DNA from: Burkholderiales bacterium PBB6
GTDB taxonomy: Bacteria > Pseudomonadota > Gammaproteobacteria > Burkholderiales > Burkholderiaceae_C
Length of the DNA stretch: 64,000 nt
Assembly: GCA_002255925.1 (NCBI GenBank)
Contig: NKIH01000005.1
Coordinates: forward strand, 124,001-188,000
Direction: 5' to 3'
Of this stretch, positions 40,528 to 57,932 are shown one piece after another (position 1 is the first letter of the stretch; each line of letters opens with the position of its first letter). A program made the translations under genes and the position numbers. Below the pieces are notes generated by a model. That model saw only the letters and a program-made list of their open reading frames with translations. It had not been told where the DNA came from and did no database searches.

Positions 40528-43257
40528 TCAGGCACCGCGCTCAAAGCGGTGCGTGCCCCCTACCCGCTCCACCGGCGGCTGCCCCGGCAAGCAGACGGTG
40601 GCTGGCAGACCTTCGGGCAGCTGCCATTCATGCCAGCAGGCCCCATCAGCCGTCACGCCCCAGGTAGCCACCACCGGGCCTTGCACCGTGTGCTGCACCG
40701 CGCGGCCGCTGCCCAGACGGGCATCCATCAAGGGCCGGCACAACACGGCCGCAAAGCCGGGGCTCGCCGCTTCCACGCCAGCCACACGGCGGTACAGGAA
40801 GCCCGTCACTGCACCCAGTGCGTAGTGGTTGAACGAGTTCATCGCCACGTCGCCGGTATCGCCATTCCAGCGCTCCCAGATGGTGGTGGCGCCGCGCACC
40901 ACCATGTACCCCCAGCTCGGGAATTCGGTGCGCAGCAAGAGCTCAACGGCCAGGTCGGCATGGCCATGCGCTGCCAGCACGTCGAGGCTGTAGGGCGTGC
41001 CCAGAAAACCGGTGGTCAGCAAGGTGCCGCGTGCGCGGATGGCAGCGGCCAGGTGTGAAGCCGCTGCAGCGCGCAAGTCGTCGGGCAGCAGATCAAACGC
41101 CAGCGCCAGGATGTAGCCGGTGTGGCTGTGGTTGCCCACCTGCCCGTCGGCCTGCACGAAGCGCGCGTTGAACGCCGCCCGCACGCGCTGCTGCCAGGCA
41201 GTGAAATGCGCCGCACGCTCGGCGCGCCCGCTGACCCGCGCCAGCTCGGCCATCATGCCCAGCATGCGGGCCCAGCAGGCCGTGGCGGTCAGTAGCTTCG
41301 GCGTGGTTTCGTCCATCAAGGTCTTGGCGTCGAGCGACAACCAATCGCCAAAGTCCACCTCGCGCCGTTGCTGCCACAGGCCATCGGGGTTGACCTCGGC
41401 GATCCAGTGCATCCACCGCTCCATCGACGCCCAATGCTCGTCCAGCACGGTGGTGTCGGCGTAGTGGCGCCACAAGGTGTGCGGCAGCACCACGCCAGCG
41501 TCACTCCAGCCATGTGCGCCGTAGGCGGGCAAGGCGGGCGGGTTGGTGTCGGCATAGGCGCCGTCGGCACGCTGGCTGGCCCGCAAATCACCGAGGAACC
41601 GGCGGGTAAAACCCCGCACATCCATGTTGCAGGCCGCCGTGGGCCAGAACACCTGCGCATCACCCGTCCAGCCCAGGCGCTCGTCGCGCTGCGGGCAATC
41701 GGTCGGCACGCCGACGAAGTTGCTGCGCTGGCTCCAGAAGGTGTTGTGCCACAGGCCCTGCAGCACGGGGTGGCTGCTTTCAAACTCGCCCGTCACGGCC
41801 AGGTCGCTGTGCACCACCACGCCGTCGATGTCGCTGGCTTTCAACTCGCCCGGCCAGCCACTGACATGCACGTAGCGGAAGCCGTGGTACGTGAAGCGCG
41901 GCGCCCAGGTCTCGCCGGCGGCATCGCCTCGCAAGGTGTAGCGGTCGGTGCAGCGGGCGGCGCGCAGGTTGCGCATGTCGATCTGGCCGTCCTCACCGAG
42001 AATTTCGGCGAAGCGCAGCGTCACCGTTCGGCCGGCCTCACCCCGCACCCGGATGCGGCACCAACCGGCGAAGTTCTGGCCGAAGTCGAGCACATGCTCG
42101 CCGTTGGGCAGTTGGGTGATCTGGCGTGGTGCCAAGCTCAGCGTTTCGCGGATCGGCTCACTGCTCTGAAGATGCAGGGCACAGGGCGGCACCGGTGCCG
42201 CCCAGACAGGCAGCCAGTCTCGGTCATCGAAGCCCGGGCTGGCCCAGCCGGCCTGCTCCAGCCGCGCGTCGTGGCTTTCACCGTGGTAAATCTCGGCAAA
42301 ACGCACCGGGGCGGTGGCGCTGCGCCAGGCGGTGTCGGTGCCCCACACCTGCGTGCTGCCGTCGGCCAGCAGCACCTCCAGACGTGCCCACAAACGGCGC
42401 GGCGCTGAGCCAAACGGATAGCGGCCACGGCCAATCGCCTCGCTGGCGTAGAAGCCGTCCCCCACCATCACGCCCAGCGCATTGGGGCCGGCGTGCAGCA
42501 GCGCGGTCACGTCATGGCTTTGCACCAGCAAGCGCACACGAAAGTCACTGTTTTCCGGTGTCAGCAAAGCATCACTGATCCGCTGGCCGTTCAGCAGCGC
42601 CTCGTAGCCGCCCAGGGCGGTGATGTGCAGACGCGCCTGCTGCACGGGGCCGGGCAGCGTGAATTCGCGGCGCATCAAGCGCGCGGGCTGAGCGGGCGCC
42701 GGGTGCCAGTCGATCGCTTCGGCAGGCGCCTGTGCCGGCGCCCAGGCGGGCGCCAGCAGCACCGCATCGGCTGCGTGCCAACCTTCTTCCGCGCGCTGGC
42801 ATGTCCACCAGTCAGCCGGCTGCGGCGCCAGGAACACAGCGTCGCCTTGTTCACCTTTGGCCCGCAGCAAGGCCCCGACACCACCCTGGCGCGGCTCCGC
42901 GATGAAGGGATGGAAGGTGCGCACGGCCACGGCCAAGCGGTGCTCGCCAGCGGCCAGGTCGCCCAGCGCCATGTCTTGCAGTTCGCGGCCCGCCATCGGG
43001 TCGGTGGAGGCATGCAGCAACACGCCGTCGAGCCACACGCCGGGCAAGCCCTTCTGAGCCGCCACGCTGAGGCGAGCGTCGGTCAATGGCTGGGCGAGCG
43101 TGAAACGCCACACGAAGGCCCGTGGCGCCTTCTCGCCCGGGGTATCGCCCCAGGCCCACCACCAGCCGGCTTCACGCTCGGCACGGCCGGCCTCGTCTTC
43201 AGCGGCCAGCCAGATCAGGCCGTCGGCCGGGGCATCAACTTCGGTATCCATGGTCAT
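40528..43257 (-). CDS. GH78 alpha-L-rhamnosidase
   Basis: 909 residues from ATG 43257. The N-terminal beta-sandwich domains include a Bac_rhamnosid_N region (AWRSATAPVRFAEIYHGES) and LDFGQNFAGW. The (alpha/alpha)6 catalytic barrel has the GH78 hallmark DCPQRDERLGWTGDA (around residue 520) carrying catalytic acidic residues, followed by FLGDLRASQRADGAYADTNP. There is no signal peptide, so it acts in the cytoplasm on imported rhamnosides, releasing L-rhamnose for the isomerase/kinase/aldolase encoded at 52179-57014. A terminator-like structure lies only 26 bp upstream of its start. Confidence 0.93.
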   Translation of the reverse strand: MTMDTEVDAPADGLIWLAAEDEAGRAEREAGWWWAWGDTPGEKAPRAFVWRFTLAQPLTDARLSVAAQKGLPGVWLDGVLLHASTDPMAGRELQDMALGDLAAGEHRLAVAVRTFHPFIAEPRQGGVGALLRAKGEQGDAVFLAPQPADWWTCQRAEEGWHAADAVLLAPAWAPAQAPAEAIDWHPAPAQPARLMRREFTLPGPVQQARLHITALGGYEALLNGQRISDALLTPENSDFRVRLLVQSHDVTALLHAGPNALGVMVGDGFYASEAIGRGRYPFGSAPRRLWARLEVLLADGSTQVWGTDTAWRSATAPVRFAEIYHGESHDARLEQAGWASPGFDDRDWLPVWAAPVPPCALHLQSSEPIRETLSLAPRQITQLPNGEHVLDFGQNFAGWCRIRVRGEAGRTVTLRFAEILGEDGQIDMRNLRAARCTDRYTLRGDAAGETWAPRFTYHGFRYVHVSGWPGELKASDIDGVVVHSDLAVTGEFESSHPVLQGLWHNTFWSQRSNFVGVPTDCPQRDERLGWTGDAQVFWPTAACNMDVRGFTRRFLGDLRASQRADGAYADTNPPALPAYGAHGWSDAGVVLPHTLWRHYADTTVLDEHWASMERWMHWIAEVNPDGLWQQRREVDFGDWLSLDAKTLMDETTPKLLTATACWARMLGMMAELARVSGRAERAAHFTAWQQRVRAAFNARFVQADGQVGNHSHTGYILALAFDLLPDDLRAAAASHLAAAIRARGTLLTTGFLGTPYSLDVLAAHGHADLAVELLLRTEFPSWGYMVVRGATTIWERWNGDTGDVAMNSFNHYALGAVTGFLYRRVAGVEAASPGFAAVLCRPLMDARLGSGRAVQHTVQGPVVATWGVTADGACWHEWQLPEGLPATVCLPGQPPVERVGGTHRFERGA

Positions 43258-43283
43258 GCAGTCACGCGTCAAAACGCCCAGGG

Positions 43284-43323
43284 AAAAAAATCCTCCCCGA
43301 CCCGGCAGACGCCGGGGTCGGGG
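43284..43323 (-). terminator. Rho-independent terminator after the esterase gene
   Basis: Minus-strand hairpin CCCCGACCC ... GGGTCGGGG (9-bp stem, partly extended by GGC/GCC) followed within a few bases by seven T. It lies 49 bp after the esterase stop and only 26 bp before the rhamnosidase start codon. Confidence 0.8.
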
Positions 43324-43372
43324 TGGAAACCAGGCAGCACCGGAAGACACATCCGGCGCCCGGGGCCTTCAC

Positions 43373-44326
43373 TCATTGGCGGGCCAGCCAAGCCAGGTAG
43401 GCGCTCATCCAGCCATCGCTGGTATTGCCGCGCGGCGCCATGGCGCCGAAGCCGTGACCCCCACGCTCATACAGGTGCAGCTCGACGCGCTGGCCGGCCT
43501 GACGCCAGTTCTGGACCATGTCAAAACTGTTGGGCGGAAACAGCGCGTCGTCCGCTGCCTGGGCCAGGAATAGCGGCGGTACCGGCTGGCGTGGCTGGGT
43601 GGCGTAGAAGCCGCCGTAGATCAACGCCAGCGTGGCCGGCATTTCATCAGCGCTGGCTTGCGACACCAGCGCCCGGCCGGTGCGCGCCCCCGCTGAAAAA
43701 CCGATGTAGCCGATGCGCTGCGCATCAATGCCCTGCTCGCCCGCATGCGCCTTGAGCCAGACCATGGCGGCCTTGGCGTCGGCCACGGCGGGCGCGTAGG
43801 GCTGCAGGTCATCGGCCACCTTCGGAGCACCGGGCGCAAAGCGCTTGGCGATCTCCTGGTTGATGACGGCGGCGAAGTCATCATCCGGCACCGGCGTGGG
43901 GTTGACGCGGTACACCAGCACGAATGCGGTGGTGCCTTCGGCCGCGAGCTTCTGCGCAACCGGCATGCCCTCGTTCTCGATGGCGACGAACTGGTAGCCA
44001 CCACCGGGCACCACCAGCACCGCCCGGCCGTTGGCCTGCCCGGCGGCAGGCCGCACCACGAACAGCTGCGGCCGAACCACGTTGCGCACGACACGCTCGC
44101 GGCCCAGACCGGTCCACTGGAAGGCCGGGGCGTTGTTGTTTGCAGCGCCACCCAGCTCGATCGGCGCTGGCAACACCATCGGGGCCGCCGGCACGGTGCG
44201 AAACACGAAGCCGCCTGGCGCTGCGGGTGCATTGCCCTCGGCTGCAGACGCAGTCATGGGCAGGCACAGTGCAGCCAGCGACAGCGCACTCAGCGTGAGT
44301 GCGCGGCGAGCATTGCGGCGCTTCAT
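43373..44326 (-). CDS. Exported alpha/beta-hydrolase (acetyl esterase/lipase-like)
   Basis: 317 residues from ATG 44326, overlapping the fusion-gene stop by 4 bp. The basic start RRNARRALTLSALSLAALC and an Ala-Ser-Ala cleavage site (about 27-29) indicate a signal peptide. Alpha/beta-hydrolase motifs are an oxyanion PGGGYQF, nucleophile elbow GFSAGA, Asp in AADDALF, and catalytic His in RGGHGFG. Members deacetylate xylo-oligosaccharides or acylated glycosides. In this operon it would remove acyl groups in the periplasm before uptake by the GPH transporter. Confidence 0.85.
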   Translation of the reverse strand: MKRRNARRALTLSALSLAALCLPMTASAAEGNAPAAPGGFVFRTVPAAPMVLPAPIELGGAANNNAPAFQWTGLGRERVVRNVVRPQLFVVRPAAGQANGRAVLVVPGGGYQFVAIENEGMPVAQKLAAEGTTAFVLVYRVNPTPVPDDDFAAVINQEIAKRFAPGAPKVADDLQPYAPAVADAKAAMVWLKAHAGEQGIDAQRIGYIGFSAGARTGRALVSQASADEMPATLALIYGGFYATQPRQPVPPLFLAQAADDALFPPNSFDMVQNWRQAGQRVELHLYERGGHGFGAMAPRGNTSDGWMSAYLAWLARQ

Positions 44327-46914
44327 GCCGCCACCGCTTCTGGCTGGCTGACCGGCAGCTTGTGGAAAGCGCCGTCCTTCATGATGGCGGCCAGCTTGTG
44401 CTTGTCCTGCATCACGGCAACATCGAGCGTCGGGTCGCCGTCCACCAGCAACAGGTCGGCCAGGAAGCCTTCGCGCAGCAGGCCCAGCTCATCACCCAGG
44501 CCCATGATCTGTCCGCCCAGCATCGTCGCGGCACTCAGGGCCTCGGCCGGCGTGTAGCCGAAGTGGCGCACGAACAGCTCCAGGTCCCAGGCATTGCGGC
44601 CATTGGGGTTGAACGGGAAGCCGTAGTCGCCGCCGGGCAGCAGGCGTATGCCGCGTCGGCGTAGCTCAGGCACCAGCACCTTCTGGCGGGCCAGCACCAC
44701 TTCGGCGTCCTGCTTCATGTGGGTCATGTCGAAATGCGGGGGCGGCGCAGCGTCCAGCGTCGCCTGGATGATGCCGATGCTCGGCGCAACGAACAGCTCG
44801 TCCTTGTGCGCTTCCAGCAAGTCCAGCGCTTCTTCGTCGGCGTAGGTGCAGTGGTACAGCACGCGAAAGCCCGCCCGCACGCCCAGTTTCACGGCCTCGG
44901 CCGCGTGGGCATGGCCGGTCAGCCACAGGTCGTTCGCGCGCGCAGCTTCGCCCGCGGCCATCAGCTCTTCCGGCGTGTAGAGCAATTCCAGCGATGCACC
45001 CGGCTTGAGCGCACTCTCGCCCGATATCAGGAACTTCACCGACTTCGCGCCGATGTCCTTGCAGCCCTTCACGAAGGCCGCCACGTTGACCGGCCCGGCG
45101 CCATGCTCGTCGGCCTTGCCCGGATCCAGCAGCGTGCCGTCGCTCGGCGGCTCACGCTCGACGGAAGACGGAATCAGGCGCGGGCCGGGCAAGCCGCCGC
45201 TCTCGATCTGGTCGCGCAGGCTGATCTCCAGCGTCTTGCTCAGGGCGCCGGCCGAATAGCAGCTGGTGAAGCCATGGTCGAGCAGGATGCGCGCATTGCG
45301 TGCAGCCGTCAGCGCGAGTTGCTCGGGCGGCAGGTACATGCCGGGCACGAACTTCTCGACGCTGGTGGGCCAGGTCAGGTGGGCATGGGCTTCGGTCAGG
45401 CCGGGCATCAGCACCCCGCCACGGCCGTCGACCAGCCGGGCGTTGGTGCGCGGCACGCGTTGGCCGTCGCGGGCGATGGCGGTGATGCGGTTGCCATCCA
45501 CCCGCAGCTCACCCGCGAAGGGCGCGCTGCCGGTGCCGTCAAACAAGCGCACGTTGGTGAACACCACGCCCGGCGGTGCGGCAGGCGGCACGTACTGGTG
45601 GTCTTGCGGCAGGTCGACCGAATTACCGGGCTGCGGCTGTGGCTGCACCGCATTCACCAGCGCATTGGCCCGTGCGATGGCGCCCAGGTGGTAGGCGCTG
45701 GGCTTGGGGAGGCGCTGCTGCGTGCTGCGATCCACGGCGATCAGGCCGAAGCGCATGCCGAAGCCGAACACCCACTCGAAGTTGTCGAAGGCCGTCCAGT
45801 AGGTGTAGCCGGTGATGGGCACACCGTCGGCGATGGCCGCGTGCAGGCCGGCCAACGCGCGATCGATGAAAACCAAACGGCGCTCGTCGTTGTCACCGCA
45901 ATAGCCGTTCTCCGTGATGATGATGGGCAGCTTCAGCTCAGCCGCCACGCGGCGCGCCACCGAAGCGATCGCCTCGGGCGCGAACTCATAACCGGCGCCG
46001 GTGGTTTCAGTGCCGGCAGGCGTGGCCACCTGACCCTGCGGGCCGTAGATTTCACGGGTGTAGTTCTGCAACGCAAAGAAGTCATCGCCGTCGATGGCAG
46101 GCAGCCACTGGCGGAAGTTGCCGTGCCACATGCGGGCGGCGTTCTGCTCACCACCGGGCACCATGTGCGGCTGCGACAGTGCCAGCGACAGGCCCACCTT
46201 CACGCCCGGCGCCACCTTGCGAATGACCGCCCGTGCGGCCATGTGCGCCGCCGAGATCGTGGCCACACCGCGCGCGTCACCGGCCATCTGGAAACCGCAG
46301 TAAGTGATGGGATCGGTGCCGCAGGCCTTGGCCGCGCTCTCGCGCCAGGCCGGTGCGCGCCAGGCTTTCACGTCCACCCCGATCGGCGGCACAAACCCCA
46401 GCTGCGAAAACATCGACTGCAGCAAAACGCCAATGTTGCATTCGTTCAGCGTGACCACACGTTGCACCGCCGAGCCCAGGGCCGGCATCACCTGCGCCAC
46501 ATAGCGGGCAAACAGCTCGGGCGTGCGCTCACCGCGCCAGCCGCCGAGCGGCATCAGCCACTTCGGCGACGTGAAGTGGTGCAGCGTCACCAGCGGCTCC
46601 AGGCCGTGCTCCACGCAGGCGTCCACCACGGCGCGGTAATGGGCCAGGGCCTCGGCGCTGAACACGCCTTCGCTGGGCTCCACACGGGCCCACTCCACCG
46701 AGAAGCGGTAGTGCTTGAAGCCGAGGGAGGCGATCAGCGCGATGTCGTCACGGAAGCGCCGGTAGTGGTCGATGGCGATGCCGCTCTTGTCAACGTAAGG
46801 CGAGCCTTCGGCCATTTCTTCGGCCCAGGTGTCGCAGTTGTCGTTGAAGCCCTCAACCTGGTGGGCAGCCGTGGCCACGCCCCAGCGAAAGTCCGCAGGA
46901 AATTGTGAAGTCAT
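44323..46914 (-). CDS. GH1 glycosidase - amidohydrolase fusion protein
   Basis: 863 residues, starting MTSQFPADFRWGVATAAHQ. Residues 1-420 are a complete GH1 barrel with acid/base TLNECN (Glu158) and nucleophile IITENGY (Glu335), closing with YWTAFDNFEWVFGFGMRFG. A Gln/Pro-rich linker (about 422-450) leads to an imidazolonepropionase/prolidase-like amidohydrolase (451-863). That domain has the metal motif HAH (His510, His512), Lys627, His668, His688 and Asp763, plus the small beta domain at both ends (VVFTNVRLFDG and LLLVDGDPTLDV). Both halves look catalytically intact and the frame is unbroken. There is no signal peptide, so it is cytoplasmic. It would remove a beta-linked sugar and hydrolyse a C-N or ester-type bond of the same imported molecule. 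It lies between the GPH transporter and the esterase. Confidence 0.88.
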   Translation of the reverse strand: MTSQFPADFRWGVATAAHQVEGFNDNCDTWAEEMAEGSPYVDKSGIAIDHYRRFRDDIALIASLGFKHYRFSVEWARVEPSEGVFSAEALAHYRAVVDACVEHGLEPLVTLHHFTSPKWLMPLGGWRGERTPELFARYVAQVMPALGSAVQRVVTLNECNIGVLLQSMFSQLGFVPPIGVDVKAWRAPAWRESAAKACGTDPITYCGFQMAGDARGVATISAAHMAARAVIRKVAPGVKVGLSLALSQPHMVPGGEQNAARMWHGNFRQWLPAIDGDDFFALQNYTREIYGPQGQVATPAGTETTGAGYEFAPEAIASVARRVAAELKLPIIITENGYCGDNDERRLVFIDRALAGLHAAIADGVPITGYTYWTAFDNFEWVFGFGMRFGLIAVDRSTQQRLPKPSAYHLGAIARANALVNAVQPQPQPGNSVDLPQDHQYVPPAAPPGVVFTNVRLFDGTGSAPFAGELRVDGNRITAIARDGQRVPRTNARLVDGRGGVLMPGLTEAHAHLTWPTSVEKFVPGMYLPPEQLALTAARNARILLDHGFTSCYSAGALSKTLEISLRDQIESGGLPGPRLIPSSVEREPPSDGTLLDPGKADEHGAGPVNVAAFVKGCKDIGAKSVKFLISGESALKPGASLELLYTPEELMAAGEAARANDLWLTGHAHAAEAVKLGVRAGFRVLYHCTYADEEALDLLEAHKDELFVAPSIGIIQATLDAAPPPHFDMTHMKQDAEVVLARQKVLVPELRRRGIRLLPGGDYGFPFNPNGRNAWDLELFVRHFGYTPAEALSAATMLGGQIMGLGDELGLLREGFLADLLLVDGDPTLDVAVMQDKHKLAAIMKDGAFHKLPVSQPEAVAA

Positions 46915-46959: not shown

Positions 46960-48315
46960 TCAAGCCGCCTGAGCGGTGCGCCGCTGGGTCAGCTCGGCGT
47001 TCATCTGTTGCAGCTGGGCGAGGCCCAGCGGATAGCCCCAGGCCATGACGGCCGCCACGCCCAAGGCCATCAGGGCCGGGATCACGCTCATCAAGGCCAC
47101 GATGCCCTGCTGCGCCATCGGCGCCTGCGCAGCCACGCCGGCCTGGTAAGCGGTGAAGCTCAGCACGCCACCAACGATGGCGCTGCACAGGCCCGAGCCC
47201 ACCTTGGAGGCGAAGTTGATGGTGGCAACCAAGGTGCCCACCACCCGCTGGCCCTCGCGGCGCTCGATGTCGTCGGCGATGTCGCCACTCATCGAATAGC
47301 TGATGGGCGCACTGATGCCCAGGCACAGGTTGCTGAGCAAGGCCAGCGCAAACACCAGCGGCAGGCGATCAGCGCCGCCGAACAGCATGGCGCTGAGCAT
47401 CACCGCGCCGCTCAGCATCGCGCCCACATACACGCGCTTCTTGCACAGACGGCGGGTGAGCTGGTCACTGACGATCACGCCCAGCACCAGGCCGATGCCG
47501 CCCAGCCCCATGAAGGGCCCGATCAGCTGTGGCTGGCCCATCACCACGGCGAAGTAATACACGCCGCTCGACAAGGGCAGGCCGATCAAGATGCCCAGCA
47601 CACACTGCGCCAACACACCCGTGCGCCAGGCGCGGCTGGCCAACAGGGAACGCAGATCGGCTTTGAGTGCCGCCCGCGGCCCGGACATGGGCGGCACGCG
47701 CTCACGCACGAAGGCAAAGCACAGCCAGGTGAACAACAGGCCCAGCCCGGCGAACAGCATGGCCGCACGCTGGAAGCCCTGCGCTGGCACACCGTCCGAC
47801 AGCACGTCCTTCAAGATGGGGAAGCCCGCGCTGCAGCCGATGACGAAGATGAACTGCACGAGGCTGTTGACGCCGGCCAGACGCAGCCGCTCGTCCGGGT
47901 CTGGCGCGATCATCGGCATCATCGACTGGAACGGGATCTGGATCAGGCTGTAGGCACACCACAGCGCCACATAGGCCAGCACGTAATACACCGTGCGTGC
48001 CGCGCCCTCCAGCGGCGGCACGCTGAAGCTCAGCACCAGCGCCAGGGCCAGCACCGGCGCGAACCACAGCAGGTAAGGCCTTGCCTGGCCAAAGCGGCTG
48101 CGGGTGGCGTCTACCCGGCGCCCCACCCAGATGTCCCACACGGCATCAACCACCCGCACCAGCAACAACAAGGTACCGATGAACGCCGCCGACAGCCCGG
48201 CCACGTCGGTGTAGAAATACATCGCCATGCCACCGGTGGCGGTCACGGCCGTGGGCATGAAGTTGCCCAGGCCGTAGGCCACTTTTTCGTGCAAAGGCAG
48301 TCGCAGCTTGCTCAT
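46960..48315 (-). CDS. GPH family glycoside:cation symporter (MFS)
   Basis: 451 residues with twelve membrane helices. The start LPLHEKVAYGLGNFM, the loop DAVWDIWVGRRVDATRSRFGQARPYLLW and the helix-4/5 region SLIQIPFQSMMPMIAPDPDERLRL are characteristic of the glycoside-pentoside-hexuronide family (MelB-like). It should carry a glycoside across the inner membrane with Na+ or H+. It is the second gene after the TonB receptor and feeds the cytoplasmic GH1 fusion and GH78 enzymes. Confidence 0.92.
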   Translation of the reverse strand: MSKLRLPLHEKVAYGLGNFMPTAVTATGGMAMYFYTDVAGLSAAFIGTLLLLVRVVDAVWDIWVGRRVDATRSRFGQARPYLLWFAPVLALALVLSFSVPPLEGAARTVYYVLAYVALWCAYSLIQIPFQSMMPMIAPDPDERLRLAGVNSLVQFIFVIGCSAGFPILKDVLSDGVPAQGFQRAAMLFAGLGLLFTWLCFAFVRERVPPMSGPRAALKADLRSLLASRAWRTGVLAQCVLGILIGLPLSSGVYYFAVVMGQPQLIGPFMGLGGIGLVLGVIVSDQLTRRLCKKRVYVGAMLSGAVMLSAMLFGGADRLPLVFALALLSNLCLGISAPISYSMSGDIADDIERREGQRVVGTLVATINFASKVGSGLCSAIVGGVLSFTAYQAGVAAQAPMAQQGIVALMSVIPALMALGVAAVMAWGYPLGLAQLQQMNAELTQRRTAQAA

Positions 48316-48406: not shown

Positions 48407-50743
48407 TCAGAACTTCACATCCGCCGTGATGCCCACGCTGCGGAACGAGTTGCCGCCCAGCGAGTAGGCGTAACCCGAGCCAGCGCCCTTGCCCGGCAGC
48501 GGGTAGAGGATGGCGTTGGGCACACGCTCGTCACCGGCGTTGCGAACGAACAGGCCGACGCCCCACTTGTCATCCGGGCTGCGCACACCGGTGCGCAGGC
48601 CAACGATGGTGTGTGACTGGTAGCTGCACTCCGGTGCCAGCGTGTTGCACAGGCGCACGGCCGTCTTGTAGGTCACGTCAGCACCCAGGCTCCATTCGTA
48701 GTCGCCGAAGATGCCGGTGGTGTATTCCACGCCCAGCGTGACCTTGCCCTTGGGCGAATACAGCAGGCGCTGGCCGCCTACATCCTGGCCGTCGAACTGG
48801 AAGCCGGTGGGGTACTCGGTGCCGAGAATCACCGCGCTGCTGGCATTCACCGTCAAGCCGGCCATCGGGCGGGCCCGCAGATCCAGCTCGAGGCCATAGC
48901 TCAGCACCTTGGGCACATTCAGCGGAATGCAGTTCAGGGCGCCGATGGCCGTCAGGGTGCAGTTCTGCTCCTGGAAGTCCTTGATGGTGGTGCGGAACAA
49001 GGCCACGTCCACATCCAGACGGCGGTTCAGCAGGCTGGTCTTCAGGCCCAGCTCGAAGCTGGTCGGCTGCTCGGCCTTGACGATGTCGCCGGTGGTGGTG
49101 CCACTGGCGGTGAGCAGGCCCATCGGCGTGTCGTTATCGATCTGCGGCGCCTTGTAGCCGCGGCTCAAGGTGGCGTAGACATTGGTGTCCTTGTCGAGCA
49201 CGGCTTGCAGGCCGACCTTGCCCGACAGGTTGCTCTTGGTGATCGACGCCGAGCCGGTCTTGATCGTGGCCGGCAGGGTGAACGGTGCGAACGCCACCAC
49301 GCTGGACTGGGTCTGCGTGTCTTCCACCTTGTCACGGGTGTAGCGCAGGCCCGCCAAGGCGCTGAACTGCTCATTGAGCTTGAAGCTGGCCTGGCCAAAC
49401 AGGGCGGCCGAGCGGCTGTCGGTCACGGTGTCGGCGGTGTTGGTGATCGAGCGCGGCACCGGCGGCGACGGCACGTAGGGCGGCGGCAGGATGGTGGTGA
49501 TGATGTGCTTGTCGGAGTGGTAATCCGACAGGAACAGGCCGGCCACCCAGTCGACTTCCTGCTTGCCCGGGCTGGACAGACGCAGCTCCTGGCTGAACTG
49601 GCGGATGTCCTTGGTGGAGTCGCTGGTGCGCACCTTGTCCCAGCCTTGCGACATGTCGATGGCTGCGGAATCAGGGCCGGTGCTGCGTTCACGCGCGGCG
49701 GTGATCGAGGTCAGCGTCAAGCCGTTGGCCAGCGTCTTGTCGATCTGGGCCGACAGGCCACTGACACGGGCCGTGTTCAACTCCAGCGCGTCGGAACAAA
49801 CCGTGTTGTTGCGCAGGCTGACGGTGACACCGCAGGCGGCGAACTCGGCCTTCGGCGCATGGTTGCCGGCGGTGTTGCTGTCATAGGCAATCGCGGGCGC
49901 AAAGAAGGTGGCGCCGGTGGCCTTGCTGCGGTCGTGCTCGGCGATCAGGTTGATGGCCAGGTCGGCATCCGGCTTGAGCAGGTAACGCACGCGCACGCCA
50001 TTGCCGGTGGTGGCACTGTCGGTGTTGTTGAAGACGTTGAAGTACACGCCGGTCTGGCGGTCAGAGTGGGCCGTGACGCGCAGAGCGGAATCATCGGTCA
50101 GCGGCACATTCAGGCCGCCGCGCACCACGGTGTTGCCCAGCTTCGAGCCCAGCACATCCCCGCCTGACAGCTCGACATTCGCGAAGCCACCAAAGCGCCC
50201 CAGCACCGGCGACTTGCTCACCAGGTTCAGCACACCGGCCGACGCGCTCTTGCCGAACAAGGTGCCTTGCGGGCCGCGCAGCACTTCCACGCGCTCCATG
50301 TCGAACAGCGCACCGCCGGCCGTGTTGCCCAGCGGCACGCCGTCGACCACCACGCCCACCGAGCTTTCAGCCGAGGTGGTGAACACCGCCGTGCCGATGC
50401 CGCGAATGGAAGCGCTGCCACCGGCGCCGCCGGTTTTCTGATCGCCGAACTCCAGGCTGGCGGCCGACTTGGCCAGATCACCCAGGTCGCGGATGCCTTG
50501 CTTTTCAAGCTGCTCGGCATTGACCACGCTCAGCGCCACCGGCACGTCTTTCAGACGCTGGCTGCGCTTCTGCGCCGTGACCACCACGGACTGCACCTCA
50601 CCGCTGTCGGCCTTGGGCTGATCAGGGGTGGTTTGTGCGCCGACGGGCAGCGCCAGAACGATCAGGCCACCGGCGGCCATCAGGTGAACCAGGGGGCTCA
50701 GGGACTTGTGCAGGGTCTTCTGCGGGTTGGTCTGCGCATGCAT
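48407..50743 (-). CDS. TonB-dependent receptor of the rhamnoside locus
   Basis: 778 residues from ATG 50743, preceded by GGAGA at good spacing. Signal peptide about 18-37 (LMAAGGLIVLALPVGAQ). TonB-box-like VQSVVVTAQKRSQ, then the plug domain (VPVALSVVNAEQLEKQGI to MERVEVLRGPQGTLFGKSA), then a beta-barrel ending in FRSVGITADVKF. VVTAQKR receptors of this type are common in plant-material degraders and import aryl glycosides or oligosaccharides. It is the first minus-strand gene divergent from the second LacI regulator, whose operator pair lies 94 bp upstream. Confidence 0.92.
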   Translation of the reverse strand: MHAQTNPQKTLHKSLSPLVHLMAAGGLIVLALPVGAQTTPDQPKADSGEVQSVVVTAQKRSQRLKDVPVALSVVNAEQLEKQGIRDLGDLAKSAASLEFGDQKTGGAGGSASIRGIGTAVFTTSAESSVGVVVDGVPLGNTAGGALFDMERVEVLRGPQGTLFGKSASAGVLNLVSKSPVLGRFGGFANVELSGGDVLGSKLGNTVVRGGLNVPLTDDSALRVTAHSDRQTGVYFNVFNNTDSATTGNGVRVRYLLKPDADLAINLIAEHDRSKATGATFFAPAIAYDSNTAGNHAPKAEFAACGVTVSLRNNTVCSDALELNTARVSGLSAQIDKTLANGLTLTSITAARERSTGPDSAAIDMSQGWDKVRTSDSTKDIRQFSQELRLSSPGKQEVDWVAGLFLSDYHSDKHIITTILPPPYVPSPPVPRSITNTADTVTDSRSAALFGQASFKLNEQFSALAGLRYTRDKVEDTQTQSSVVAFAPFTLPATIKTGSASITKSNLSGKVGLQAVLDKDTNVYATLSRGYKAPQIDNDTPMGLLTASGTTTGDIVKAEQPTSFELGLKTSLLNRRLDVDVALFRTTIKDFQEQNCTLTAIGALNCIPLNVPKVLSYGLELDLRARPMAGLTVNASSAVILGTEYPTGFQFDGQDVGGQRLLYSPKGKVTLGVEYTTGIFGDYEWSLGADVTYKTAVRLCNTLAPECSYQSHTIVGLRTGVRSPDDKWGVGLFVRNAGDERVPNAILYPLPGKGAGSGYAYSLGGNSFRSVGITADVKF

Positions 50744-50836
50744 GTGCGTTGTCTCCGTGGTGGGCGTCGGTGGCACCGTGCTGGTGGCCGCGCCTGTGTT
50801 GTGGTTCGTGGTTACAGTACCGCCATTGGTAGAAAT

Positions 50837-50863: not shown

Positions 50864-50923
50864 TTATGTGAACCACCACCCCACTGCGCATCAAGGCAAA
50901 CCCTGACGCATCGAGGCTACGAC

Positions 50924-52006
50924 ATGCCCTCCAAAGCTGCACCTCCGGTTGACAATGCACCGGTGAAATCCCCTGCAACGCCGCCGAAAAAGATCACCAT
51001 CTACGACGTGGCGCGTGCCGCTGGCGTGGGCACCACCACCGTGTCGCGGGTGCTGAACAACGACCCCGCGGTGAAGCCGCAGACGCGCGACTCGGTGCTG
51101 GCCACCATCACCGCGTTGGGCTACCGGCCGAACATCGCGGCGCGCAGCACGGGTGGCGGCAAGTCTCGGTGGATCGCGCTGCTTTACCAGAACCCGGTCA
51201 TCCACTACATCCACCCGATCCAGCAAGGCGCGATCGACCGTTGCCGTGATGCTGACCACATGCTCTCGGTGCACTCGTGCCAGAACACCGGTCAGGCGCT
51301 GATCGACGAGGTGCTCGACATCGTCGACCAGCTGCAACCCAGCGGCGTGGTGCTGACACTGCCATTGAGCATTTCTCCCAAGCTCATCCAGGCCCTGCGC
51401 GAACGCCAGGTGTCGCTCGTGCGGGTGGCCCCGGCCGGCCTGAACGACCCGGCCGCAAGGGTGTATTTCGACGAGCGCAGCGCCGGTGCCGCCATGACCC
51501 GCGCATTGATCGCGCAAGGCCACCGCCGCATCGGCTTTCTGGCCGGTCTGCCCGAGGGCCATCCGCAGCCGGACGAGCGTCGCCAGGGCTTCGCTGACGC
51601 CATGCTGGAGGCCGGCCTGAAAGTGCCCGCAGCGCACATGGGCTGCGGCTCGTTCCACTTCGACGAAGCCCTGGCCCCGCTGCGCACGATGCTGAGCCGC
51701 AAGCAGCCGCCCACCGCCATCTTCTGCGCGAATGACGACATGGCCGCAGCCGCGTTGCAGGTGGCGGCCGAGCTGAACCTGGCCGTGCCGCGTGATCTCT
51801 CGGTGGTCGGTTTCGATGACTCCTACATCGCCCGCATCGTGACGCCCCGGCTCACCACCATCCGCCAGCCACTGCACGAAATGGGCTGGGAGGCCGTGGA
51901 CATGATCCTGCGCGGCCAGGCCACCCCCGACATGGGCTACCAGCGGGTGCTGCCGTACCAGCTGGTGGAAGGACGCAGCACGGCCGGCCTGCCCGCCGAA
52001 GGCTGA
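50924..52006 (+). CDS. LacI family regulator of the rhamnoside locus
   Basis: 360 residues from ATG 50924 (GAGG upstream). HTH ITIYDVARAAGVGTTTVSRVLN (about 24-45), hinge ARSTGGGKSRW, and an effector domain with AIFCANDDMAAAALQVA and LSVVGFDDSY. Compared with the other LacI protein (38147-39256) the N-terminal extension is shorter and the recognition helix differs (VGTTTVSRVL versus VSPATVSRIL), consistent with the different operator core (GGAAGCGCTTCC versus GAAAACGAT). It probably represses the receptor/transporter/glycosidase side and possibly the downstream rhamnose genes, with an imported glycoside or rhamnose as inducer. Confidence 0.92.
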   Translation: MPSKAAPPVDNAPVKSPATPPKKITIYDVARAAGVGTTTVSRVLNNDPAVKPQTRDSVLATITALGYRPNIAARSTGGGKSRWIALLYQNPVIHYIHPIQQGAIDRCRDADHMLSVHSCQNTGQALIDEVLDIVDQLQPSGVVLTLPLSISPKLIQALRERQVSLVRVAPAGLNDPAARVYFDERSAGAAMTRALIAQGHRRIGFLAGLPEGHPQPDERRQGFADAMLEAGLKVPAAHMGCGSFHFDEALAPLRTMLSRKQPPTAIFCANDDMAAAALQVAAELNLAVPRDLSVVGFDDSYIARIVTPRLTTIRQPLHEMGWEAVDMILRGQATPDMGYQRVLPYQLVEGRSTAGLPAEG

Positions 52007-52178
52007 GGCCACGGCGCGACGCCGCGCAGCGTGGCTTTGCGCCCCATAAGCCAAAGTGATGGTGCCCCCAAGCGCGGGGCCATTGAGTGCGCCGCAGGTG
52101 CTGCCTACAGTGCGGCCACCGCTCGGCCAGGCGCCGGGCAACCTGCCCCTCCACCTGCACAGCGCTGCTGCCACCACC
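52007..52178. other. 172-bp gap before the rhamnose genes
   Basis: There is a weak GCCACG...CGTGGC stem followed by three T just after the LacI stop, and no recognisable LacI operator or promoter. Rhamnose genes may therefore be read through from the LacI transcript or use a promoter I could not identify. Confidence 0.35.
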
Positions 52179-54278
52179 ATGTCCACTGCCACCCCGTTCC
52201 CCGTGTGGGACGACGCCCGCGCCGCCTCGCTCGACGCGCCCAATGCCCTGCTCTACCGCTCGAACCTGCTGGGCTCGGACCTGCGCATCACCAACTACGG
52301 CGGCGGCAACACCTCGGCGAAGATCTGGCAAACCGACCCGCTCACGGGCGAGCAAGTGGAGGTGCTGTGGGTCAAGGGCTCGGGTGGTGATGTGGGCTCG
52401 ATGAAGCTCGACGGCTTCTCCACGCTGTACATGGACAAGCTGCGCGCCTTGAAGGGCTTGTACCGCGGCCTGGCGCATGAAGACGAGATGGTGGCCTACC
52501 TGCCCCACTGCACCTTCAACCTCAACAGCCGCGCGGCGTCCATCGACACGCCGCTGCACTCCAGCCTGCCGTATGCGCATGTCGACCACATGCACCCGGA
52601 CGCCGTGATCGCGATGGCCGCGATGGCCAACTCGCAAGCCATCACCGAGCAGGTGTTTGAAGGCACCGTGGGCTGGATGCCCTGGCTGCGTCCGGGCTAC
52701 GAGCTGGGCCAGCAACTGGCGGCCTACAACGAGGCCCATCCGGGCCTGCGCGGCATCGTGCTGGGCGGCCATGGCCTGTTCAGCTGGGGCGACACCGCCA
52801 AGAGCTGCTACGAGAACACCGTGAGCCTGATCGAGCGGGCCCAGCAGTGGCTGGAAACCGAGCGCACCGCGCGCCAGGTGCAGGTGTTTGGCGGCGCCGC
52901 CGTGAGCACCCTGGCCGATGCTGACCGTGACGCCACCCTGGCCCGCGTGCTGCCGGTGCTGCGCGGCCTGTCGGCCGAGGGCGCGCCGAAGCTGCTGCAT
53001 GTGAACACCTCCCCCGAGGTGCTGGCCTTCGTCAACTCGAACGACCTGCTGCCGCTGGCCGCCCTCGGCACCTCTTGCCCCGACCACTTCCTGCGCACCA
53101 AGATCCGCCCGCTGATCGTGCCCGAGGCGGTCTACCAGCTCGACGGCGACGCCCTGAAGGCGGCCCTGAACGAGCTGGTGGCCGGCTACCGTGCTGATTA
53201 CGCTGCCTACTACGAGCGCTGCAAGCGCCCGACCAGCCCGGCGCTGCGTGACCCGAACCCGGTGGTCATCCTGCTGCCGCGCATCGGCATGGTCACCATC
53301 GCGAAGGACAAGGCCACGGCGCGCATCGCCGGCGAGTTCTATGTCAACGCCATCAACGTGATGCGCGAGGCCAATGCGGTGGACGAGTATGTCGGCCTGC
53401 CCGAGCAGGAAGCCTTCGACATCGAATACTGGTTGCTGGAAGAAGCCAAGCTGCAGCGCATGCCACGCCCCAAGCCCATGGTGGGCAAGGTGGCCGTGGT
53501 GACGGGTGGCGCTGGCGGCATCGGCCAGGCGATTGCGCGTCGCATCCTGGCCGACGGTGGCTGCGTGGTGCTGGCCGACATCGACCAGGAAGCACTCGAT
53601 AGCGTGAGCGCCGAGCTGGCCCGAGCCCACGGCCGTGACCATGTGCGCGGCGTGCGCTGCGACGTGACCGACGAAGCCAGCGTGATCGCCGCCTTCGGCC
53701 GCGCTGCCATCGAGTTCGGCGGCGTCGACATCCTGGTGAGCAACGCCGGCATTGCCTCGGCCGCGCCGATCGAGGAGACGACGCTGGCACTGTGGATGCG
53801 CAACCAGAGCATCCTGGCCACTGGCTACTTCCTGGTTGGCCGCGAGGCCTTCAAACAGATGAAGGCCCAGGGCACCGGCGGCGCCATCGTGATGATCGCC
53901 AGCAAGAACGGCATGGTGGCCAGCAACCAGGCCACCGCCTACTGCGCGGCCAAGGCCGCCGAGATCCAGCTCAGCCGCAGCTTCGCGCTGGAAGGCGCAC
54001 CGCTGGGCATCCGCTCGAACGTGGTGAATCCCGACGCGGTGATCCGCGGCTCGAAGATCTGGACTGGCAAGTGGAGCGAAGAACGCGCCGCCGCCAACAA
54101 GATTGGCGAGAACGACCTCGAAGCCTTCTACCGCGACCGCAGCCTGCTCAAGCGCAGCGTGCTGCCCGAAGACATTGCCGAGGCCACCTACTTCTTCGCC
54201 GCCGAACACCTCAGCGCCAAGAGCACCGGCAACATCCTGAACGTGGATGCCGGCAACCTCGCAGCCTTTACCCGGTGA
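52179..54278 (+). CDS. rhaD: Bifunctional rhamnulose-1-phosphate aldolase / lactaldehyde dehydrogenase (SDR)
   Basis: 699 residues from ATG 52179. Residues about 20-400 are a class II aldolase domain: NYGGGNTSAKI, GTVGWM, HVDHMHPDAVIA, which supplies metal-binding His, and GIVLGGHGLFSWG. Residues about 430-699 are a short-chain dehydrogenase: VVTGGAGGIGQAI (NAD site), NAGIAS, and YCAAK (catalytic Tyr/Lys near 587). The fused enzyme splits L-rhamnulose 1-phosphate into dihydroxyacetone phosphate and L-lactaldehyde, and the SDR half oxidises lactaldehyde. It is the first of three rhamnose genes, and the isomerase starts 5 bp after its stop. Confidence 0.93.
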   Translation: MSTATPFPVWDDARAASLDAPNALLYRSNLLGSDLRITNYGGGNTSAKIWQTDPLTGEQVEVLWVKGSGGDVGSMKLDGFSTLYMDKLRALKGLYRGLAHEDEMVAYLPHCTFNLNSRAASIDTPLHSSLPYAHVDHMHPDAVIAMAAMANSQAITEQVFEGTVGWMPWLRPGYELGQQLAAYNEAHPGLRGIVLGGHGLFSWGDTAKSCYENTVSLIERAQQWLETERTARQVQVFGGAAVSTLADADRDATLARVLPVLRGLSAEGAPKLLHVNTSPEVLAFVNSNDLLPLAALGTSCPDHFLRTKIRPLIVPEAVYQLDGDALKAALNELVAGYRADYAAYYERCKRPTSPALRDPNPVVILLPRIGMVTIAKDKATARIAGEFYVNAINVMREANAVDEYVGLPEQEAFDIEYWLLEEAKLQRMPRPKPMVGKVAVVTGGAGGIGQAIARRILADGGCVVLADIDQEALDSVSAELARAHGRDHVRGVRCDVTDEASVIAAFGRAAIEFGGVDILVSNAGIASAAPIEETTLALWMRNQSILATGYFLVGREAFKQMKAQGTGGAIVMIASKNGMVASNQATAYCAAKAAEIQLSRSFALEGAPLGIRSNVVNPDAVIRGSKIWTGKWSEERAAANKIGENDLEAFYRDRSLLKRSVLPEDIAEATYFFAAEHLSAKSTGNILNVDAGNLAAFTR

Positions 54279-54283
54279 CCGCC

Positions 54284-55573
54284 ATGACCCTGCACATTGA
54301 CGCCACCCTGATCGCCGCGCGCAACGACGCTGAACAACGCGCCGTGCGCAGCGACTACGCCCACCTGGGCGAGCAGCTGGAGCGCCGCGGCATCCAGATC
54401 GACCAGGTGCGCGAGCAGGTTGCTCGCTTCGGCGTGGCCATCCCCAGCTGGGGCGTGGGCACGGGCGGCACCCGTTTCGCGCGCTTTCCCGGCCAGGGCG
54501 AGCCGCGCCATGTGTTCGACAAGCTGCAGGACTGCGGCGTGATCCAGCAACTGGCGCGCGCCACGCCCACTGTCTCGCTGCACATCCCTTGGGACAAGTG
54601 CAGCGACTGGGGTGAGCTGCGCGAGGCCGCCGGCTTCCATGGCCTGGGCTTCGACGCCATCAACTCCAACACCTTCAGCGACCAGGCCGGCCAGGCGCAC
54701 AGCTACAAGTTCGGCAGCCTCAGCCACACCGATGCGGCCACCCGCGCCCAGGCGGTGGCGCACAACCTGGAGTGCATCGCGATCGGCCAGCAGCTCGGCA
54801 GCAAGGCGCTGACGGTGTGGGTGGGTGACGGCAGCAACTTCCCCGGCCAGCAGCACTTCCGACGCGCGTTCGACCGCTACCTCGAGAGTGCCCGGCAGAT
54901 CTACGCCGCCCTGCCCGGCGACTGGCGCATGATGCTGGAACACAAGATCTGCGAGCCGGCCTTCTACAGCACCGTCATCCAGGACTGGGGCTCCAGCCTG
55001 ATGGCCGCGCAACTGCTGGGCCCGAAGGCGCAATGCCTGGTCGACCTCGGCCACCATGCCCCCAATGTGAACATCGAGCTGATCGTGGCCCGCCTGCTGG
55101 CCGCGGACAAGCTGGCCGGCTTCCACTTCAACGACAGCAAGTACGGCGACGACGACCTTGACGCCGGCAGCGTCAGCCCCTACCGCCTGTTCCTGGTGTT
55201 CAACGAGCTGGTGGCCGCGGCCAAGGAAGGCGTGGCGTTTGATCCTGCCTACATGCTGGACCAGAGCCACAACGTGACCGACCCCATCGAGAGCCTGATG
55301 ACCAGCGCCATCCAGGTGCAGCGCAGCTACGCTCAAGCCCTGCTGGTGGACCGCGCTGCACTGGACGCCGCACAGGAAGCCAACGACGCGCTGACGGCCA
55401 CCCACCTGCTCAAGCAGGCCTTCCAGACCGACGTGACGCCGCTGCTGCAGCGCGTGCGGCTGGACGGCGGTGGCGCCATCGACCCGGTGGCCACCTACCG
55501 GGCCAGCGGCTACCGCAACCGCGTGGCGCAAACCCGCCCGGCCGCGGCTGGAGGCGGCGGTGGCATCGTCTGA
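54284..55573 (+). CDS. rhaI: L-rhamnose isomerase (RhaI type)
   Basis: 429 residues from ATG 54284 (MTLHIDATLI). A TIM-barrel xylose-isomerase-like enzyme with SLHIPWDK, WVGDGSNFPGQ, MMLEHKICEPAFYSTVIQDWG, DLGHHAPNVNIE and FHFNDSKYGDDDLDAG, whose Glu/Asp/His side chains form the two-metal site. It is the Pseudomonas/rhizobial type rather than the E. coli RhaA type. It converts L-rhamnose to L-rhamnulose. The last 14 bp overlap the kinase gene. Confidence 0.93.
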   Translation: MTLHIDATLIAARNDAEQRAVRSDYAHLGEQLERRGIQIDQVREQVARFGVAIPSWGVGTGGTRFARFPGQGEPRHVFDKLQDCGVIQQLARATPTVSLHIPWDKCSDWGELREAAGFHGLGFDAINSNTFSDQAGQAHSYKFGSLSHTDAATRAQAVAHNLECIAIGQQLGSKALTVWVGDGSNFPGQQHFRRAFDRYLESARQIYAALPGDWRMMLEHKICEPAFYSTVIQDWGSSLMAAQLLGPKAQCLVDLGHHAPNVNIELIVARLLAADKLAGFHFNDSKYGDDDLDAGSVSPYRLFLVFNELVAAAKEGVAFDPAYMLDQSHNVTDPIESLMTSAIQVQRSYAQALLVDRAALDAAQEANDALTATHLLKQAFQTDVTPLLQRVRLDGGGAIDPVATYRASGYRNRVAQTRPAAAGGGGGIV

Positions 55574-57017: not shown

Positions 57018-57932
57018 TCAGCCCAGCACGCAGGCCGCCAGCGCCGCCCCTTCGGCCAGCACAAACTCGCGCAGCGCCTGCTGCACGCTGCTGAGCGGTC
57101 GGTCGCGGCGGTACAGCAGGCACCAGTCCAGCCACTTCGGCATGCCGGCCACGTCCAGCACGCGAATCAGCCCGTGGCTGATTTCGGTCTGGCACACATG
57201 GGCCGACATGAAGCTGATGCCCATGCCCGCCATCACGGCCTGCCGAATGGTTTCAGGCCCCTGCAGCTCGATGGCGGTTTGCACCTGCAGGCCCTGCACC
57301 ATCATCAGCTGCTCAAGGAACTGGCGCGTTGATGAGCCGGGCTCACGGAACAAGAACGGCTCGTGCCGCAAGTCGGCCCACTGCAGGCCGCGCTGGTCGG
57401 CCAGCGGATGGCCGGCCGCCGCCACCAGGACATGCGGGTGTCGGGCAAAGGCCTCCGCCTCCACCTCGGCGTGCGCCGGCGGATAGCCGCCAATGACCAG
57501 ATCCACCTTGTGTTCTGCCAGCTGTGCCAGCAGGGTGTCGCGCTGGGCGATGCTGAGCTTCACGCGCACCTGCGGATAACGCTCGCGGAAGGCCGTGAGC
57601 AGCGCCGGCGCGAAGTACTGTGCCGGCGACACCACCCCCAGGTGGATCTGCCCCTTGAACTGCCCTTCGAGCGAACTCATCGCGTCAGCGGCCACCTCGA
57701 CCTGCGCAAGGATGGCACGGGCATGGCGCAGCAATTCGCGGCCGGCGTCCGTCAGCTGGATGGGGCGCGCGTGGGTATCAAACAGGCGCAGGCCGGCCTC
57801 TTCTTCCAGCTGCCGTATCTGCTGCGACACCGCAGGCTGGCTCATCGCCATCAGCTCAGCCGCCCGCGAGAAGCTGCTGGTGGATGCCGCCGCTTCAAAG
57901 ACGCGCAGGCTGCGCAGCGTCAGCTCGCGCAT
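57018..57932 (-). CDS. LysR family transcriptional regulator
   Basis: 304 residues from ATG 57932. Winged HTH in residues 1-60 (LRSLRVFEAAASTSSFSRAAELMAMSQPAVSQQIRQLEEE) and a two-lobed effector domain (GQIHLGVVSPAQYFAPALL, DLVIGGYPPAHAEVE, EPFLFREPGSSTRQFLE). It is the last gene of the aromatic operon, overlapping the alpha/beta-hydrolase by 13 bp, an unusual place for a LysR regulator, which is normally divergent. The PGSSTRQ segment resembles CbbR-like members. The target is unknown but the overlap suggests it controls this operon or a linked pathway. Confidence 0.9.
   Translation of the reverse strand: MRELTLRSLRVFEAAASTSSFSRAAELMAMSQPAVSQQIRQLEEEAGLRLFDTHARPIQLTDAGRELLRHARAILAQVEVAADAMSSLEGQFKGQIHLGVVSPAQYFAPALLTAFRERYPQVRVKLSIAQRDTLLAQLAEHKVDLVIGGYPPAHAEVEAEAFARHPHVLVAAAGHPLADQRGLQWADLRHEPFLFREPGSSTRQFLEQLMMVQGLQVQTAIELQGPETIRQAVMAGMGISFMSAHVCQTEISHGLIRVLDVAGMPKWLDWCLLYRRDRPLSSVQQALREFVLAEGAALAACVLG

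Follow-up and report, generated by a model that had tools for sequence, protein, structure and literature searches.

The window analysed here is a 64,000-nt stretch from Burkholderiales bacterium PBB6, and its minus strand carries a gene (44323..46914, read from 46914 to 44323) in which a GH1 glycosidase is joined to a metal-dependent amidohydrolase (AH), as judged from the open frame, Pfam matches and fused orthologues. The earlier note had placed a single uninterrupted 863-residue frame at these coordinates, with a full GH1 domain and a full amidohydrolase, and our analysis agreed on each point, with the strand being minus. The GH1 half (residues 1–420; 45655..46914, minus), in which no leader peptide was seen, matched Glyco_hydro_1 with 220 bits against a Pfam cut-off of 22.6, and its catalytic Glu158 (T-x-N-E) and Glu335 (T-E-N-G) were invariant in 26 aligned GH1 sequences. 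A linker (residues 421–449; 45568..45654, minus) leads to the AH half (residues 450–863; 44326..45567, minus), which matched Amidohydro_1 (PF01979) at residues 501–848 (66.7 bits; Pfam cut-off 25). Its metal ligands, namely the HxH pair H510 and H512, K627, H668, H688 and D763, were invariant in 41 aligned AH sequences and aligned with those of Cc2672. Neither half showed the loss of active-site residues that the earlier note had named as grounds for doubt. The protein scored below the NCBIfam cut-offs of the GH1 beta-glucosidase equivalog TIGR03356 (245.5 bits; cut-off 478.5) and of the Xaa-Pro dipeptidase family NF051886 (164.1 bits; cut-off 500), for which two unfused relatives reached 166–167 bits. 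A 729-codon open frame lies antisense to the gene on the plus strand (44719–46908); such frames are frequent opposite GC-rich genes.

On the same strand, 45 nt upstream, lies a gene for a GPH-type sugar:cation symporter (46960..48315, minus; Pfam MFS_2; TIGR00792, 255.5 bits against a cut-off of 231.35), followed by a TonB-dependent outer-membrane receptor gene (48407..50776, minus). At its other end, the fusion gene overlaps by 4 nt the gene of an esterase-like alpha/beta-hydrolase whose N-terminus looks by eye like a hydrophobic leader (43373..44326, minus), beyond which a GH78 alpha-L-rhamnosidase is encoded (40528..43350, minus; four rhamnosidase domains above Pfam cut-offs). Divergent to the receptor gene, the plus strand carries genes for a LacI-type regulator (50915..52006), a two-domain class II aldolase/short-chain dehydrogenase protein, probably of L-rhamnose catabolism (52143..54278), an isomerase of L-rhamnose catabolism (54284..55573; TIGR02629 above cut-off) and an FGGY-family sugar kinase, a probable rhamnulokinase (55590..57014). 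GH78 and the rhamnose genes give the window a rhamnose signature in line with a rhamnosyl-glucoside substrate. A LysR-type regulator gene (57018..57932, minus) adjoins a ring-cleavage operon, also on the minus strand, which encodes an alpha/beta-hydrolase that is the neighbour of AH in unfused relatives (57920..58840), a glutathione-S-transferase-like protein resembling maleylacetoacetate isomerase below cut-off (58865..59569), a TctC-type solute-binding protein named from sequence and synteny, with no NCBIfam match (59527..60534), an MhpA-like FAD monooxygenase (60598..62220; NF004829 above cut-off), an FAA-hydrolase family protein (62156..62998) and a VOC-family extradiol-type dioxygenase (63034..63942). 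The window thus encodes the FAD monooxygenase close to the VOC dioxygenase (60598–63942), as expected of an A-ring cleavage pathway of the fde/ifc type.

The one-frame GH1-AH fusion was found in four further genomes, with 67–84% identity per half. Three of these fused genes (G332, G154 and G391) came from 399 family genomes, and the fourth (L100, genome G813, a MAG) from a scan of genome contigs that yielded 79 loci, in which G391 and G154 were met again as L101 and L120. Full-length co-linear relatives, which the earlier note had proposed to search for, therefore exist, and its fear that every relative might be encoded as two genes did not come true: five genomes have one frame, and most relatives have separate genes. 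The two-enzyme fusion is real, intact and conserved. Both halves showed dN < dS in each of the 10 pairwise comparisons among the five fused genes. The linkers were of comparable length and low identity (31–62%); four of the five share a D-H-x-Y-x-P-P motif, and the Gln/Pro run is peculiar to the protein of the window. A search of the linkers for a shared internal start of the AH half, limited to ATG codons, found none. Massilia matches spanning query residues 5–854 were considered as further fusions and rejected, as frame analysis showed two genes.

The GH1 halves of the five fused genes formed one clade (SH-aLRT 99), whereas their AH halves fell into no single clade (3 changes; p-AU 0.04); a simple single fusion therefore does not account for their history. 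A single event for both halves was rejected on this disagreement between the trees, the likely cause being that AH was exchanged between operon and fused copies, or that the fusion was split in certain lineages.

Close relatives of the AH half (44–79% identity) are separate genes at 76 of the 79 loci, mostly beside genes for an FAD monooxygenase, an extradiol (VOC) dioxygenase, an FAA-hydrolase and an alpha/beta-hydrolase. These four were seen near AH at 64, 66, at least 60 and 66 of the 79 loci, respectively, and three or more of them at 61. Monooxygenase and dioxygenase were both unseen at nine loci, two of them fused (L100 and L101); at L101 the two genes lie at the edge of the examined stretch or beyond, and the MAG with L100 gave no monooxygenase match at E 1e-80 and no rhamnosidase match within the 22 kb examined. 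In four unfused genomes of the same family (L065–L068), AH lies inside the operon, flanked by the monooxygenase and alpha/beta-hydrolase genes; the operons of the window, G332, G154 and G391 start about 11 kb or less from the fusion and are without AH. Within the 399 family genomes, AH (67% identity or more) occurred in seven, all of which had the monooxygenase, itself present in 37 (hypergeometric p 3e-8 for co-occurrence). Six clusters with monooxygenase and without AH, from 6 of the 30 such genomes, gave no alpha/beta-hydrolase, GH1 or TonB-receptor matches, and TctC-type binding proteins were present in all six. GH106 was found near 25 of the 79 AH loci and RhaI near 7. The AH-bearing aromatic-catabolism cluster recurs across alpha-, beta- and gammaproteobacteria (Novosphingobium, Massilia, Paraburkholderia, relatives of Alteromonas and others). 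AH homologues include a stand-alone one in Ideonella livida and SARO_RS17935 of Novosphingobium aromaticivorans DSM 12444, which has a monooxygenase gene as neighbour.

A Tat-like RR leader was present in 35 of the 36 separate GH1s recovered from these clusters versus none of the five fused GH1s, which form a separate clade without leaders. Since no leader was seen, the fusion protein is probably cytoplasmic, which supports the location assumed in the earlier note. Four of the five fused loci have the GPH symporter next to the fusion, and no unfused locus (0 of 76) has it nearby; the fused exception, G154, had no GPH homologue at E 1e-20. These results suggest that deglycosylation, once periplasmic, became cytoplasmic as the transporter changed. 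The fused genomes are mutually related, so the common symporter and the missing leader may also reflect shared descent. In Massilia and Telluria, GH1 stands directly upstream of AH within one ring-cleavage operon, but as two genes, and this GH1 mostly carries a Tat-like leader and is 39–41% identical to the fused GH1.

From the fusion, its intact active sites and conservation, the gene context and the absence of a leader, all of which were computed, we infer a substrate class, an order of steps and a lactone as the AH substrate. The resulting reading, for and against which we see the balance as even, is that the fusion works in the cytoplasm as a bifunctional enzyme that breaks down rhamnosyl-glucosides of a flavonoid-type phenolic (rutinoside- or neohesperidoside-like), with AH opening the pyranone that follows ring cleavage. 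The glycoside would enter through the TonB receptor and GPH symporter, GH78 would remove rhamnose, and the GH1 half would then release beta-glucose. The FAD monooxygenase would hydroxylate the phenolic at position 8 and the extradiol dioxygenase would open its A-ring, after which the FAA-hydrolase would cut off the acylpyruvate arm and leave the old C-ring as an aryl-pyranone (lactone). The AH half, as a metal-dependent hydrolase, probably opens this pyranone, a chemistry deduced from context, and the neighbouring alpha/beta-hydrolase would cut the resulting chain. A point against this order is that the GH1 and AH steps would not follow one another, except where the C-ring carries the sugar.

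The same order of 8-hydroxylation and A-ring opening is described for the fde (naringenin, Herbaspirillum seropedicae) and ifc (isoflavone, Variovorax V35) pathways, whose group-A FAD monooxygenase and glyoxalase-type enzyme resemble those of the window by description (PMC11069340, PMC8552027, PMC11303751). According to PMC11069340, the ifc pathway runs through 8-hydroxydaidzein and later the pyranone 2-hydroxy-5-(4-hydroxyphenyl)-4H-pyran-4-one, a substrate of the cupins IfcD1/D2; the window has an amidohydrolase, GH1 and rhamnosidases instead. That a cupin carries out the known pyranone step speaks against AH in this role. No IfcD-type cupin was found among the window genes scanned, and homologues of an N. 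aromaticivorans cupin, used as query and not IfcD itself, were near 5 of the 79 AH loci. The word amidohydrolase is absent from the main texts of PMC11069340, PMC8552027 and PMC11303751, and a search of the open-access PMC literature found neither a GH1-amidohydrolase fusion nor an amidohydrolase in flavonoid degradation. By tying a sugar-removing enzyme to this recurrent aromatic-catabolism cluster, the fusion indicates a candidate for the enzyme that opens the ring once the A-ring has been cleaved. If the reading is true, the gene could mark organisms that degrade flavonoid glycosides of plants aerobically, and the pyranone step, attributed in the papers examined to one cupin pair (PMC11069340), would gain a simple assay. 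A bolder version, which we hold to be unlikely, sees in the AH clade metal-dependent pyranone (C-ring) lactonases of a new kind, which in aerobic flavonoid degradation take the place of the ifc cupin: with 3-O-glycosides, the A-ring would be removed first, and one polypeptide would deglucosylate (GH1) and open (AH) the 3-O-glucosyl pyranone, so that deglycosylation would come late rather than early.

Among the alternatives, the best surviving one, though unlikely, has AH act on the aglycone once this is freed and while its rings are still intact, by C-C hydrolysis (a phloretin hydrolase-like reaction) or as an ester hydrolase, so that the A-ring is split from the B-ring, leaving the A-ring part to the monooxygenase, dioxygenase and FAA-hydrolase. 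GH1 and AH would then be consecutive steps, as fits a fusion, and the monooxygenase-dioxygenase core also occurs without AH and with TctC-type proteins, as if using a simple aromatic. However, phloretin hydrolase is not known as an amidohydrolase, and the characterised fde and ifc monooxygenases take whole flavonoids. It is likewise unlikely that the fusion lacks a joint function, co-transcribed neighbours having been joined and tolerated while the halves serve unrelated steps. The poorly conserved, low-confidence linker and the adjacent separate GH1 and AH genes of Massilia would agree with this, but five genomes keep the fusion with both halves conserved, and the fused GH1s form a distinct leaderless clade with its own symporter association.

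The earlier note had envisaged a glycosylated natural product bearing both a beta-glycosidic and an amide, ester or imide bond. Its first part is likely, because the rhamnosidase, TonB receptor, GPH symporter and rhamnose catabolism adjoin the fusion. The second, in which the imported substrate itself has both bonds and the halves attack in turn, is not supported and seems to us more improbable still. The nearest solved AH relatives include the carboxypeptidase Cc2672 and ochratoxin hydrolases, which perform amide chemistry, and the overlapping esterase-like gene with its leader would also suit such a substrate; yet unfused AH keeps company with ring-cleavage genes, a GH1 relative was not seen near 41 of 79 AH loci, and the score stays below the Xaa-Pro dipeptidase cut-off (164 of 500 bits). 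Since unfused AH mostly stands beside ring-cleavage genes, the bond it cuts more likely forms during aglycone breakdown. Finally, a sequencing or assembly artefact that joined the two genes separate in most relatives has virtually no probability and was ruled out, because the same one-frame fusion, with comparable linker length, recurs in four other assemblies.

The AH half shares its fold and all metal ligands with the Cc2672/Xaa-Pro dipeptidase/ochratoxinase group (20–27% identity in the listed structural matches), but differs in scoring below the NCBIfam peptidase cut-off, in a conserved G-G-D-Y-G-F-P-x-N-P stretch, and in its ring-cleavage gene context. These nearest solved relatives carry peptidase or ochratoxin hydrolase names, not lactonase, which counts against a pyranone role. 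In the predicted structure of the fusion, pLDDT was below 50 at residues 419–444, and with this low-confidence linker and a pTM of 0.56 the model gives no fixed arrangement of the GH1 and AH sites that would favour the transfer without release envisaged in the earlier note; its GH1 part is the weaker, as 4 of 41 alignment rows cover that half. For several solved relatives of the AH half, the deposited structure has 8 or more chains, so by analogy the GH1 domains may be displayed on an AH oligomer. The main role of the fusion may be to keep both activities at a fixed ratio in the cytoplasm. The solved structure nearest to the GH1 half was BGL167 (4r27); BGL167 and SGR_2426 (Streptomyces griseus) are 35–46% identical to it and, unlike the two-domain fusion, have deposited entries with a single GH1 domain and a length of about 410–430 residues.

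The GH1-amidohydrolase fusion gene runs from 46914 to 44323 on the minus strand and encodes 863 residues, in which both GH1 and Amidohydro_1 were recognised by Pfam. An earlier note had claimed one uninterrupted frame carrying both enzymes with complete active sites. The frame was confirmed by full-length co-linear matches in four other genomes, and the active sites by alignment, with the GH1 catalytic pair E158/E335 invariant in 26/26 sequences and the amidohydrolase metal set (H510, H512, K627, H668, H688 and D763), which aligns with that of Cc2672, invariant in 41/41. The AlphaFold model (mean pLDDT 78.6, pTM 0.56) showed two domains joined by a linker of low confidence (419-444). In Foldseek, BGL167 matched the GH1 half, and the prolidase/Cc2672/ochratoxinase group matched the amidohydrolase half.

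In an even draw of 399 family genomes, full-length one-frame matches were detected in four (the window genome and comparison genomes G332, G154 and G391), the amidohydrolase alone at ≥67% in three more, and only amidohydrolase paralogues (about 36-44%) in the remaining 34 of the 41 matched genomes. The phylum sample (398 genomes) gave a full-length match in the window genome only. A contig scan using search patterns from the amidohydrolase half (one genome per species, 84,980 species) yielded 79 amidohydrolase loci, three with one-frame fusions: L100 (new), L101 (G391) and L120 (G154), so that five fused genomes were known in total. dN was below dS for both halves in 10/10 pairs of the five fused genes. 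In Ideonella livida (G003, locus L108), the nearest named relative within the window's genus, the amidohydrolase stands unfused and alone. These results show that the fusion is real and conserved. At loci L093, L094 and L098, and among the 36-44% matches, related amidohydrolases form tandem pairs in several family genomes; next to them lie ABC-transporter genes, a relative of the FAA-hydrolase and a further hydrolase-like gene.

The fusion's strand carries, in order, a TonB receptor, a GPH symporter ending 45 nt ahead of the fusion, the fusion, an esterase-like protein with a leader whose gene overlaps the fusion gene by 4 nt, and a GH78 rhamnosidase; a LacI regulator and rhamnose-catabolism genes are divergent from this group. 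A second operon, starting about 10 kb past the fusion gene, encodes LysR, alpha/beta-hydrolase, GST-like, TctC-type, FAD monooxygenase, FAA-hydrolase and VOC extradiol-type dioxygenase proteins. The dioxygenase, FAA-hydrolase, monooxygenase and alpha/beta-hydrolase were all present in the window, G332, G154 and G391, starting at most about 11 kb from the fusion, and no amidohydrolase lay among them; genome-wide, it occurred solely fused, bar two distant G154 paralogues (43% and 28%). In 4/4 unfused family genomes compared (I. livida, Sphaerotilus hippei, Hydrogenophaga flava and Azohydromonas australica), it lay between the monooxygenase and the alpha/beta-hydrolase of this operon. Outside the family the order is variable; in the Paraburkholderia loci, for example, the monooxygenase group is a few kb distant, and the amidohydrolase and alpha/beta-hydrolase are oriented away from it.

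Taking two 399-genome draws as identical (equal size, shared handles), the monooxygenase was present in 7/7 family genomes with the amidohydrolase versus 37/399 overall (p 3e-8); as the exception among the fused genomes, the MAG G813 (which carries L100) gave no monooxygenase match at E 1e-80. Near the 79 loci, 12 of them on stretches shorter than 18 kb, we found the monooxygenase at 64, the dioxygenase and the alpha/beta-hydrolase at 66 each and the FAA-hydrolase at no fewer than 60 (some hidden by overlap filtering); at least three of the four were near 61 loci, all four near 56, and neither monooxygenase nor dioxygenase near nine. At seven control loci of amidohydrolase paralogues, FAA-hydrolase relatives occurred in six, and monooxygenase, dioxygenase, alpha/beta-hydrolase, GH1, GPH and TonB-receptor had no match. 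Six monooxygenase clusters lacking the amidohydrolase (from 6 of 30 such genomes) gave no match for alpha/beta-hydrolase, GH1 or TonB-receptor.

Sugar genes accompanied many of the 79 loci: a GH1 relative near 38, a GH106 rhamnosidase near 25 (L124 and L060 by Pfam) and RhaI near seven; no rhamnosidase match was found near L100. A separate GH1 gene lies immediately upstream of the amidohydrolase in seven Massilia/Telluria loci (six genomes). With leaders assigned by motif alone, a Tat-like RR motif ahead of a hydrophobic stretch was seen in 35/36 separate GH1s from these clusters versus 0/5 fused proteins. The GPH symporter was near 4/5 fused genes (window, G332, G391 and L100) and 0/76 unfused loci at E 1e-15; fused G154 had none genome-wide at E 1e-20, and distant homologues (29-33%) occurred in 5/10 unfused genomes tested. 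Because the fused GH1s lack the leader and mostly adjoin a symporter, we read deglucosylation as having probably shifted from periplasm to cytoplasm in the fused lineages, with the caveat for this pattern that common descent links the fused genes through their GH1 halves.

This cytoplasmic GH1 would release a flavonoid-type aglycone, and the amidohydrolase may act after A-ring cleavage. According to PMC11069340, the isoflavone (ifc) pathway of Variovorax V35 proceeds through an FAD monooxygenase to 8-hydroxydaidzein and then a glyoxalase-type enzyme, and the cupins IfcD1/D2 process the pyranone 2-hydroxy-5-(4-hydroxyphenyl)-4H-pyran-4-one, whereas here the candidate for the pyranone step is the amidohydrolase. 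On chemical grounds, we infer that extradiol cleavage beside C8a would leave the former C-ring of 5-hydroxyflavonoids as a lactone with an acylpyruvate arm; the arm would fit an FAA-hydrolase, lactone opening the amidohydrolase, and a decarboxylation the Amidohydro_2 protein (Pfam assignment) seen in 27/79 loci. IfcA does not accept isoflavone glycosides (PMC11069340), which argues that 7-O-glycosides would be deglycosylated first and speaks against late deglycosylation there. FdeE of the Herbaspirillum seropedicae naringenin pathway reportedly takes flavanones, flavones, isoflavones and flavonols (PMC11303751); that text contains none of the terms glycoside, glucoside, rutin or naringin. Within the terms searched, the open-access library yielded no account of the fusion or of its amidohydrolase in flavonoid degradation. 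The system is a variation on a known catabolic system; the role of its amidohydrolase is testable and, within that search, had no earlier assignment.

The GH1 halves of the fused proteins formed one clade (SH-aLRT 99), and the amidohydrolase halves were intermixed with unfused ones (three changes; single clade rejected, p-AU 0.04). The mixed tree would follow if fused and operon copies had exchanged the amidohydrolase, or if fused genes had been split in some lineages; either would suggest that fused and unfused forms do the same job.

An unfused cluster in the model strain Novosphingobium aromaticivorans (pNL2, L179:12995-18852) is suited to genetic tests of the unfused system; the annotation of its genes goes no further than amidohydrolase family protein, MhpA-like hydroxylase, heme-binding, VOC, alpha/beta-hydrolase and FAA-hydrolase, and a cupin gene lies about 3 kb beyond it on the opposite strand. 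In Duganella (L134, L135 and L142) the amidohydrolase gene occurs twice per cluster, the second copy (62-64%) downstream of a GH1 and a LysR-type gene. In Pseudomonas sp. T1-3-2 (L117:12253-14178), a small gene is present twice with the same visible start, around an additional copy of the alpha/beta-hydrolase, a pattern resembling a recent tandem duplication. Within the window, a second sugar operon (32365-38505) encodes a solute-binding protein (Pfam) and two permeases and an ATPase (named by reading the sequence), together with a LacI regulator (38147-39256) and a further GH1 (33413-34801) that shares about 34% identity with the GH1 of the fusion. A single open frame of 3998 codons on the minus strand (1707-13703) perhaps encodes a giant surface or adhesin-like protein.
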